In this document: piece after piece, positions 10,804 to 22,620 of the stretch
How the letters are laid out: every line of letters begins with the position of its first letter
Position numbering within the stretch: position 1 is the first letter of the stretch
DNA from: Sphingobacteriales bacterium
GTDB lineage: Bacteria; Bacteroidota; Bacteroidia; Chitinophagales; JADJOU01
DNA: 34,695 bases
Assembly (NCBI GenBank): GCA_021297855.1
Contig: JAJTHM010000083.1
Coordinates: 1 to 34,695, forward strand
Reading direction: 5' to 3'
Notes under the pieces: generated by a model
Databases searched by the model: none
Seen by the model: only the letters and a program-made list of their open reading frames with translations
Told to the model about the DNA's origin: nothing
Made by a program: the position numbers and the translations under genes

Positions 10804-11118
10804 TTATGGTTCTGTATAGCCCTCAGCACAGGTGATTTCGACCATGACGCCTACCATACAGATACTAGCTATACTATCTACCTCCTTATAAGTGAACCGT
10901 ATGCGCTGGTTATTAATTTTGACTTTAGGATATGCAGCCAGATTTGTGGGTTCGAGAATATTGCCGTCGTCTAGCCGAATATTAAATCCACAGCCATCTA
11001 GTCCATTCATGTCCACCACAGTGCCATATTTATAGTTTGGGCAGTCAGATGGGTCAGCGAGTTTCTTCTGGCAGCTGAGAAGAAGTACTATGAATAAAGT
11101 AAAAATTAGTTTGTTCAT
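10804..11118 (-). CDS. Small lipoprotein of unknown function
   Basis: The start is set at MNKLIFTLFIVLLLSC, which gives a clean lipoprotein signal with Cys16 as the lipidation site; frames upstream of it would add 22 residues with no signal character. The mature part of about 88 aa contains several cysteines (DCPNY, DGCGFNI, SICMV, ITCAEG) that could form disulfides, and a beta-rich pattern ending in TCAEGYTEP. I do not recognise the family, although short Bacteroidota lipoproteins with a GTVVD-DGCGFNIRLDDG core are common. It is transcribed alone, away from the ABC-F gene. Confidence 0.7.
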   Translation of the reverse strand: MNKLIFTLFIVLLLSCQKKLADPSDCPNYKYGTVVDMNGLDGCGFNIRLDDGNILEPTNLAAYPKVKINNQRIRFTYKEVDSIASICMVGVMVEITCAEGYTEP

Positions 11119-11173
11119 TAAAATAGATATATACCTACTATAGACGTATGTTTTTGGCGAATATTTTATAGAT

Positions 11174-11292
11174 ATTAATTTCAATGTCGTTTAGATAAGA
11201 AATACGAATGCTGCCTGAGACACGCAGCATGGGAACTGCAATGGTTCGGGGGGACACGAACCAAACACCAACTAAACGACATTGCTATTAAT
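11174..11292. ncRNA. 119-bp inverted-repeat element with two inner hairpins (structured RNA or miniature element)
   Basis: Outer arms CAATGTCGTTTAG (11182-11194) and CTAAACGACATTG (11272-11284) are perfect complements over 13 bp. After a 2-base mismatch they extend by ATTAAT/ATTAAT (11174-11179, 11287-11292). Inside are two hairpins: ATGCTGC/GCAGCAT (11208-11230) and TGGTTCG/CGAACCA (11242-11263). Both loops end in the same GACAC. The result is a three-way junction with joining segments of about 11-13 bases. It sits in the 355-base divergent gap between the lipoprotein and ABC-F genes. I do not recognise a known RNA family. A structured RNA read from either strand, a cis-regulator of the ABC-F gene, or a MITE-like repeat are all possible; there is no U-tract for a terminator. 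Confidence 0.5.
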
Positions 11293-11456
11293 TTCCTAAA
11301 ACTATTCAATTAGCATATAGAGTAGAATAATTGAGTCTATGAGTATAGGCTAACTTGAAGTAAAACAATATATTAATGAAAAATGAAGTAACTATATAAT
11401 CAAGTTTTGTCACAAACTTTTCTCGTTTCACTTTCCACTAATTATAATTTCCTTCG

Positions 11457-11464
11457 TACTTTTG
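11457..11464 (+). promoter_or_regulatory. -7 box TACTTTTG just before the ABC-F start
   Basis: TACTTTTG matches TAnnTTTG exactly, with TTTC at 11432 in place of a -33 TTTG. The box ends 9 bases before the ATG at 11474. This decides the start codon: the in-frame TTG at 11462 lies inside the box itself and could not be translated from this transcript. Confidence 0.55.
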
Positions 11465-11473
11465 CCACCCTTT

Positions 11474-13363
11474 ATGATAACCGTACAGAATATTACACTC
11501 CGATTTGGGGGCAGAACGCTTTTTGAAAATGTCACTTTTCTAATCAATAGAGAGGACAGAATAGGTTTAACTGGTAAAAACGGTGCAGGTAAATCCACCC
11601 TACTGAAGATTTTATCAGGAAATATGAAAGCGGAGTCTGGTTCTATAGCGACACCACGCGACTGTCGAATAGCCATATTGACGCAGGACATAGAGCGAAT
11701 CACCAAAGGCACTGTCATAGAAGAGGCGAGAAATGCTTTTAAGGAAATCTTGGAAATTCAGAAGAAATTGGCAGATATCACCCATCAGCTAGAGACTCGT
11801 ACGGACTATGAGAGTGATGCCTATATGAAGTTGATAGAAGACATGGGGGATTTACAAAATCACCATAATATTCTCGATAGTGATAATATAGAAGAAGAAA
11901 TTGAGCGCATTCTGAAAGGTCTAGGATTTGACCGCAAGGATATGCACAAGAATATGGCTGAACTGAGCGGTGGCTGGCAGATGCGGGTGGAGTTGGCAAA
12001 AATACTACTGCAAAAACCAGATTTAATACTACTCGATGAGCCGACCAACCACTTGGATATTGAGAGTATTTTGTGGCTAGAGCAGTTTTTGAAAGAATAC
12101 GATGGCGCAGTTATTCTAGTATCGCATGATAGAGCATTTTTAGATGCTATTACGAATAGAACGATTGAAGTGACATTAGGTAAAATAGAAGATTATAAAG
12201 CCAACTATTCTAAATATCTCGAGCTCCGCAAAGAGCGAAGAGTGCAGGTAGAAAACGCCTATAAAAATCAACAAGAGCAAATCAAGCAGATAGAACGAAA
12301 TATCGATAGATTTAGAGCTCAAGCTACGAAAGCGAGCTTTGCCCAGTCGCTGATCAAGCAGCTCGACCGCATGGAGCGGATAGAGCTAGAGGATGAAGAC
12401 AATTCTAAGCTTAACATCAAGTTTCCAAAATCAATATCTTCTGGGGTACTCATCTGTGACGTGCAGAATGTCTCCAAAAATTATGGGGAGCAGCAGGTCA
12501 TCAATGAATTTAGTTTCAAGGTAGAGCGTGGAGATAGAATTGCCTTTGTTGGTAAGAACGGAATGGGAAAATCTACGCTAGCAAAGATTCTCGCTAATGA
12601 TATCGACAATTATCAAGGAAAGGTGGACTGGGGTCATAATATTGTAAAAGGCTATTTCGCTCAGAATCAAGAAGCGGAATTGAATAATAGCAAAACAGTA
12701 TTTGAAACGATAGATGAGGAAGCCGTAGGCGATATGCGGACAGCAGTGAGATCGCTACTTGGTGCATTTCTTTTTAGTGGCCAAGATGTAGATAAAAAAG
12801 TGAGTGTACTCTCTGGGGGAGAGCGTGGTCGATTGGCTTTGTGTAAATTGATGCTAACGCCCAATAATTTTCTAATTCTCGATGAGCCGACCAACCACTT
12901 AGATATAAAATCCAAAGAAGTTTTGAAACAAGCACTTCAGAATTTCGATGGCACATTTATCGTCGTATCACATGATAGAGAATTCTTGCAAGGGTTAACC
13001 AATAAGACCTATGAATTTACCAATAATGGTATTAAAGAATTTTTAGGAACGATTGATGAATTTTTGGAGAAGAAAAAGGTGGATGGATTTAGACAATTCG
13101 AGCAGGATAAGCAAATCGCTAGTGGTCAGAAGTCAGTGGTCAATAGTCAGAAGATAGAGCCAGCTGCCAAAGTAGATATTAAAGTCAAAGAAATAGAAAA
13201 AAAGATAGAGAAGCTAGAAGCAGAAATTAAAAAATGGGAAGAAAAAATGGCTACGGAAGAATTTCTTGAAAAAGCTGCGAGTGATAGTTCTGTCTATGAT
13301 GCTTATAATAAGTTGAAGGCGGATCTAGATTTGGCTATGGCAGAATGGGAAGTACTAGCTTAA
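11474..13363 (+). CDS. ABC-F family ATPase (Uup/YdiF-like)
   Basis: A soluble tandem ABC protein with no membrane domain, of the ABC-F group that acts on ribosomes. It has two full cassettes: GKNGAGKST, LSGGWQMR and LILLDEPTNHLD in the first; GKNGMGKST, LSGGERGR and FLILDEPTNHLD in the second. Between them is the charged inter-domain helix pair (about residues 245-310, rich in E, R and K) that reaches the tRNA sites in ABC-F proteins. A C-terminal coiled coil of about 75 residues (VKEIEKKIEKLEAEIKKWEE onward) resembles the Uup/YdiF type. It is 629 aa from the ATG. The linker before the coiled coil (SGQKSVVNSQK) is encoded by an intergenic-type repeat. Resistance function cannot be inferred. 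Confidence 0.92.
   Translation: MITVQNITLRFGGRTLFENVTFLINREDRIGLTGKNGAGKSTLLKILSGNMKAESGSIATPRDCRIAILTQDIERITKGTVIEEARNAFKEILEIQKKLADITHQLETRTDYESDAYMKLIEDMGDLQNHHNILDSDNIEEEIERILKGLGFDRKDMHKNMAELSGGWQMRVELAKILLQKPDLILLDEPTNHLDIESILWLEQFLKEYDGAVILVSHDRAFLDAITNRTIEVTLGKIEDYKANYSKYLELRKERRVQVENAYKNQQEQIKQIERNIDRFRAQATKASFAQSLIKQLDRMERIELEDEDNSKLNIKFPKSISSGVLICDVQNVSKNYGEQQVINEFSFKVERGDRIAFVGKNGMGKSTLAKILANDIDNYQGKVDWGHNIVKGYFAQNQEAELNNSKTVFETIDEEAVGDMRTAVRSLLGAFLFSGQDVDKKVSVLSGGERGRLALCKLMLTPNNFLILDEPTNHLDIKSKEVLKQALQNFDGTFIVVSHDREFLQGLTNKTYEFTNNGIKEFLGTIDEFLEKKKVDGFRQFEQDKQIASGQKSVVNSQKIEPAAKVDIKVKEIEKKIEKLEAEIKKWEEKMATEEFLEKAASDSSVYDAYNKLKADLDLAMAEWEVLA
13121..13153 (+). repeat. agtggtcagaagtcagtggtcaa-type tract inside the ABC-F gene
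   Basis: A 33-base run of agtggtcag / agtcagtggtc / aatagtcag units, the same repeat type as at 10714-10748. Its length is a multiple of three and it encodes SGQKSVVNSQK in the linker between the second ATPase cassette and the coiled coil. Confidence 0.6.
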
Positions 13364-22575: not shown

Positions 22576-22620
22576 AAAGCATGAGAGAAATACATATTCT
22601 ATTTCTCTCATGCTTTTCTA
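22576..22620 (+). terminator. 16-bp hairpin with T-run before the beta-barrel gene
   Basis: AAGCATGAGAGAAAT-T paired with its complement at 22601-22616 gives a perfect 16-bp stem with a 9-base loop (ACATATTCT), flanked by A and T runs. It is placed to end transcription of the T9SS type A gene. It also lies only 19 bases before the next ATG, so it could instead be a 5' leader structure. The rest of the 204-base gap (22432-22575) holds an 8-bp inverted repeat AATACCGT/ACGGTATT and no gene. Confidence 0.6.

Follow-up and report, generated by a model that had tools for sequence, protein, structure and literature searches.

The window analysed here (34,695 nucleotides, contig JAJTHM010000083.1 of a Sphingobacteriales bacterium) contains, between two divergent genes, a 119-nt stretch (positions 11174 to 11292) with three stems, and the question is what this stretch is. 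The initial annotation, made from the sequence of the window, left the choice between a new structured RNA, an attenuator for the neighbouring ABC-F gene and a MITE-like or attachment-type repeat. We consider it very probable that the stretch is a non-autonomous MITE of the IS4 family that encloses two RAYT-type REP hairpins in inverted orientation.

Boundaries of the element

The perfect 13-bp outer inverted repeat described initially is present and forms the terminal inverted repeats (TIRs) of the element (Table 1). The window copy consists of 103 bp, from CAATG to CATTG, to which a single C is added on the right. It is short and non-coding, and carries no transposase. A 6-bp pair, ATTAAT/ATTAAT, had been added to the outer stem after a 2-base mismatch. 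This pair is not part of the element: it belongs to a 9-bp duplication, TATTAATTT, and its likeness to a stem comes from the palindromic nature of ATTAAT. The search for target-site duplications beside the outer arms, which had been proposed as a check, therefore gave a positive answer.

Table 1. Position of the element and its parts in the window
Feature	Coordinates	Strand	Evidence
MITE copy	11182..11285 (104 bp)	.	Aligned with 24 other copies from the genome; 9-bp direct repeat on both sides
Left target-site duplication TATTAATTT	11173..11181	.	9-bp direct repeat; empty site in congeners G001 and G003
Right target-site duplication TATTAATTT	11286..11294	.	9-bp direct repeat
Left terminal inverted repeat CAATGTCGTTTAG	11182..11194	+	Identity with the IS runs 18-22 bp, with 1-2 mismatches
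Right terminal inverted repeat CTAAACGACATTG	11272..11284	+	13-bp arm; shared with the IS
Hairpin 1, REP-type palindrome	11208..11230	-	Consensus GCCATGCTGCGTGTCTCACGCAGCAT, apex GTGTCTCAC; same apex in minus-strand REPs flanking the L076 RAYT
Hairpin 2 with GCAAT head, REP-type palindrome	11238..11263	+	Consensus GCAATGGTTCGTGTCCCCACGAACCA, apex GTGTCCCCAC

A family of copies in the genome

The initial proposal depended on the existence of other copies. About 26 near-complete copies, 77-92% identical to the window query, were found in the genome itself (134 contigs, 3.1 Mb). We aligned 25 of them, including that of the window, and obtained a family consensus of 104 bp, CAATGTCGTTTAGATAAGAAATACGAATGCTGCGTGAGACACGCAGCATGGCGAACTGCAATGGTTCGTGTCCCCACGAACCAAACACTAACTAAACGACATTG. 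In these copies duplications of 9 bases lie outside the arms, with a single additional base in between on the right. They give 181 matching positions, whereas 5000 shuffles averaged 101 and never exceeded 131. After misplaced ends had been re-anchored, the 9-bp duplication was perfect in 14 of the 25 copies and had one mismatch in six more. When the two flanks were joined, no reading frame ran through both at any copy (the longest covered 116 of about 190 codons), and the insertions therefore look intergenic.

Insertion site in congeners

In two congeners (G001 and G003) the left flank aligns up to the target site (window position 11178), the element is missing, and alignment resumes from about 11416, taking in the ABC-F gene and the block that precedes it; the intervening right-hand intergenic stretch is shorter and diverged in both, so that the empty-site join is visible from the left side only. 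The block (11418-11474) lies between the element and the gene and is nearly invariant in the two congeners. It contains TACTTTTG, which we take to resemble the Bacteroidota -7 promoter motif, and we infer that the ABC-F gene has its own promoter within this block. A leaderless or very short-leader ABC-F transcript is possible.

No MITE copies were found in 60 relatives and no close relative of the IS transposase (described below) in 99. Both were thus probably acquired by this lineage.

Structured RNA or mobile DNA

The minimum-energy fold of the 119-nt stretch is indeed a three-way junction, at -39.7 kcal/mol. Shuffled sequences reach -19.4 +/- 3.2 kcal/mol (z -6.4) and none of 200 was equally good. 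The minus strand gives a z of -6.5. The observation itself is real.

This stability on both strands, the position of the element 182-190 bp upstream of the ABC-F start and the retention of the hairpins in most copies (92.8% of cells paired) are what a structured regulatory RNA, or a transcription attenuator for the ABC-F gene, would lead one to expect. The 92.8%, however, is exactly the mean obtained when alignment columns are shuffled. Covariation, assessed with RNAalifold and pair counts on the aligned copies, was not found beyond that of shuffled columns (a single pair was altered on both sides, where 1.5 would be expected), so that the compensatory base changes whose lack had been named as evidence against the initial proposal are indeed lacking. 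A search of Rfam gave no match at the gathering threshold, only sub-threshold snoRNA-like noise (E 2.6-7.9). Riboswitches, ribozymes and other known RNAs were rejected on this basis. No tRNA or tmRNA was found in the window.

The proposed new structured RNA and the proposed attenuator thus find no backing in Rfam or in covariation. Both are opposed by the empty site in the two congeners and by the conserved block just upstream of the ABC-F start, between element and gene; in addition, the other copies have unrelated genes as neighbours. We regard either form of RNA function as very improbable. The observation is one of mobile DNA, not of a new RNA. The case serves as a warning that a strong multi-branched fold between genes may represent mobile DNA and not regulatory RNA, even if its loops have a motif in common.

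Of the options named initially, attachment-type repeat included, it is the MITE-like one that is borne out: the element is multi-copy, has TIRs and 9-bp target duplications, has an autonomous partner IS and is missing from the same site in two congeners.

The partner insertion sequence

A complete IS of 1,451 bp (contig C115 of the same genome, 4022-5472) has the same 13-bp TIR, CAATGTCGTTTAG, on both sides. It encodes a DDE_Tnp_1 protein (PF01609, above cut-off), which scores 161 bits against the NCBIfam IS4-family cut-off of 115 (NF033592). The YREK signature, Y-(2)-R-(3)-E-(6)-K, by which the IS4 family is defined (PMC2266710), is complete in its 458-residue frame (YHYRWNEEEAFKLLK). With this signature, the DDE domain and a suitable size, the partner resembles members of the IS4 family, and its ends fit the pattern of the IS4 subgroup, -AATR--------WTW (PMC2266710). 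Three pairs of IS ends each show a 9-bp duplication. This is one below the 10-13 bp of the IS4 subgroup but inside the family range (8-13), within the range of IS4Sa (8-10) and equal to that of IS10 (PMC2266710). Unlike an IS of this family, the MITE itself has no transposase.

Nine further contig ends carry IS ends that are 100% identical, which has the look of an assembly collapsed at a repeat. The single complete copy (locus L031, C115:3800-6000) looks as though two insertions had been joined in assembly: its left and right flanks share no duplication, and the right flank matches the left flank at C112 (L038).

The average MITE copy differs from the consensus by 5%, while the IS ends show no differences, which suggests that the burst of MITE copies predates the present IS copies. 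From the shared ends and duplications, the element would be a MITE mobilised in trans by the 1,451-bp IS4-family IS. Another IS, in Flavobacterium branchiophilum, has a transposase 62% identical to that of the partner and the ends CAATGTCGTTAAG.

Origin of the twin hairpins

The two inner hairpins are present as initially described (11208-11230 and 11242-11263). Their stems are longer in the family consensus (10 and 9 bp) than in the window copy, where they have been damaged by substitutions. GACAC does occur in both loops and corresponds to the REP core GTGTC read on the opposite strand. That both hairpins show it on one strand is due solely to hairpin 2, whose loop is inverted in the window copy compared with most copies.

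Together with the GCAAT head, consensus hairpin 2 is 92-96% identical, over 23-27 nt, to repeats found in other families of the order. At two loci, L076 (G058) and L077 (G023), such hairpins stand on both sides of RAYT genes. The products of these genes pass the NCBIfam cut-off for REP-associated tyrosine transposase and are 51% identical to each other. In a scan for hairpins with the apex GTGTC(N)NCAC, L076 had seven and L077 four, and ten surrounded L229, a Deminuibacter RAYT relative (74 bits, below the curated cut-off of 80), compared with two in 241 kb of other DNA. The inverted REP partners at L076 have the apices GTGTCCCCAC (plus) and GTGTCTCAC (minus), and these are exactly the apices of consensus hairpin 2 (plus) and hairpin 1 (minus). 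The MITE thus contains two REP-type hairpins in opposite orientation, hairpin 1 on the minus and hairpin 2 on the plus strand, with heads inward; the paired REPs beside the L075 and L076 RAYTs mostly have heads outward. At L229 (G064:C11) the REP pairs consist of two different stems (TTGCCG and GGCT) that share the GTGTC core in opposite orientation, which is the design of the two MITE hairpins.

These matches bear on the usual origin of a MITE, internal deletion of an IS, as for MITECca01 (PMC9769881). The present element could be a simple derivative of this kind, its hairpins having arisen by chance or been selected for folding and being unrelated to REPs. Ends of 16-22 bp common to MITE and IS accord with such an origin. 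Past these ends, however, the match to the IS is no better than chance. Hairpin 2, taken with its head, is 92-96% identical to RAYT-flanking REPs over 25-27 nt, and the apices of the two hairpins are the same as in a RAYT-flanking pair, whereas such apices occur only twice in the 241 kb of other DNA. We therefore think simple internal deletion improbable.

The opposite possibility is a REPIN or BIME spread by a RAYT, with IS-like ends that are incidental. Two inverted REP-type hairpins would suit it, as would the RAYT genes of the genome itself, but these genes have no such hairpins nearby, the copies are bounded exactly by IS ends and 9-bp duplications, and in other genomes the same ends surround unrelated interiors. 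To our knowledge, HUH transposition (IS200/IS605-type) makes no such target duplications. We regard this explanation as very improbable.

The element does resemble REPINs, BIMEs and RAYT-associated REPs (PMC3116915, PMC6006769) in its two opposite hairpins, with apices and heads that match RAYT-flanking ones. It differs from REPINs and BIMEs (PMC3116915) in that the hairpins are enclosed by IS ends with target duplications and have their heads inward. The 5' GT[AG]G foot is missing from the MITE hairpins, whose head is GCMAT; REPs of Bacteroidetes RAYT subclass 2.6 are reported to be without GT[AG]G (PMC6006769). A cognate RAYT was not found in the genome: the RAYT on contig C85 is only 32% identical to that of L077. 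The genome's RAYTs belong to another branch and have no such hairpins beside them, and hairpin 2 occurs free only a few times in this genome, which thus offers no evident source of the REP pair. Because of this divergent RAYT, the lack of hairpins near it, the few free copies and the missing foot, the element is filed as an IS4-family MITE with putatively REP-derived cargo and not as a REPIN.

Loop inversions

The loop of hairpin 2 reads GGGA instead of TCCC in four of the 25 copies (the window copy, L012, L013 and L018), with stem and flanks unchanged. In one further copy (L025) it is the loop of hairpin 1 that is inverted, together with one other change. The flipped copies lie about as far from one another (0.092) as from the remaining copies (0.094), and several independent inversions are therefore likely. 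Such loop inversion has been attributed to template switching during replication (PMC8794818). The inversions imply that the hairpins form in vivo as DNA; if recurrent, they are a natural record of hairpin formation in living cells.

The same ends with other cargo

An exact search for the two arms at MITE spacing gave 32 loci in 17 other Bacteroidota genomes, including Marivirga, Deminuibacter, Arcicella, Agriterribacter, Flavobacterium and several MAGs. Most of the loci have a 9-bp duplication, and their interiors differ. Those of Chitinophagaceae FW021 and Paludibacter consist of two related hairpins in opposite orientation. The cargo hairpin is also found free, without arms, in 8 of 15 sampled short matches in Arcicella and in 3 of 3 in Paludibacter. 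Compared with L101, the MITE copy L130 (both from Dive100_bin10.8) has an extra 22-bp palindrome, CTCCTGATCCGGCGGACAGGCC, inserted in its interior, which makes a third level of nesting.

A close relative of the transposase is present in only 2 of the 18 genomes tested (the genome of the window and F. branchiophilum), which suggests that in the other 16 the mobilising enzyme has been lost, is more divergent or was unassembled. When exact ends were sought in 396 genomes spread over the phylum, only the genome of the window gave a match; such elements are therefore sporadic.

Six other hosts were examined for an association of the cargo with RAYT genes. In Marivirga, Dive100, Deminuibacter and Paludibacter no RAYT gene has the cargo hairpin beside it, and FW021 gave no RAYT match at the threshold used. 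In Arcicella a RAYT (L242) is followed by an array of hairpins, AACTTTCCGAAAGT...ACTTTCGGAAAGTT, that are related but not identical to the cargo, AACTTCCCGAAAGT...ACTTTCGGGAAGTT. Around a Paludibacter RAYT relative (L230, G065:C242) an unusually long hairpin, AAACGTGTTAGGTTT...AAACCTAACACGTTT, is present in eight copies; it is unrelated to the cargo that the MITE carries in Paludibacter.

It is conceivable, though we put it forward only tentatively, that across Bacteroidota IS4-type ends CAATGTCGTTTAG repeatedly enclose host-specific REP-type palindromes, giving composite miniature elements open to two unrelated transposases. If this is true, the ends, as double strands, could be the substrate of a DDE enzyme and the hairpins, as single strands, that of a RAYT HUH enzyme, and one mobile repeat could be spread or re-loaded by the other.

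Proposed mechanism and relation to known elements

In the mechanism that we propose, the DDE transposase of the full-length IS would recognise the shared ends and excise the element, which would reinsert elsewhere with a 9-bp stagger, as the ends, duplications and empty site indicate. The hairpins would be cargo descended from REPs, which RAYT HUH transposases process as single-stranded hairpins. The REPs may have entered through RAYT-mediated insertion between two IS ends, or two IS ends may have captured an intergenic stretch that already carried them. During replication the hairpins would extrude, and now and then a loop would be inverted, presumably by template switching.

The element is similar to two bacterial MITEs that also come from Bacteroidota, MITECca01 (Cardinium, PMC9769881) and BrickBuilt (Porphyromonas gingivalis, PMC4596501): all are short, non-coding and multi-copy, with TIRs shared with an IS. 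MITECca01 derives from an IS982-family element (PMC9769881) and the ends of BrickBuilt resemble other IS families (PMC4596501), whereas those of the present MITE are of the IS4 family. BrickBuilt also carries foreign repetitive cargo, in its case a minisatellite (PMC4596501); here it is an inverted REP-type pair. Neither the TIR sequence CAATGTCGTTTAG nor a description of REPs nested in a MITE was found in the literature searched (subscription journals lay outside its scope and, for the TIR, so did ISfinder). The MITE layer is ordinary. The nesting of what look like REPs is unusual and recurs in other Bacteroidota.

The origin and spread of REPs and MITEs are open questions. A MITE with RAYT-type REPs, and ends reused around other palindromes, offers a concrete route by which one mobile repeat may hitchhike on another, and this could bring REPs to genomes without a cognate RAYT.

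Other features of the window

The product of the divergent gene on the minus strand (10804-11118) is a small putative lipoprotein (MNKLIFTLFIVLLLSC...), which matches NigD-like lipoproteins weakly and below the cut-off. The ORF list gives the gene a TTG start at 11184, which reaches into the MITE and is unlikely to be the real one. Elsewhere in the window, a perfect 17-bp inverted repeat with a 7-nt loop (22576-22616) lies between two genes and is probably a terminator.
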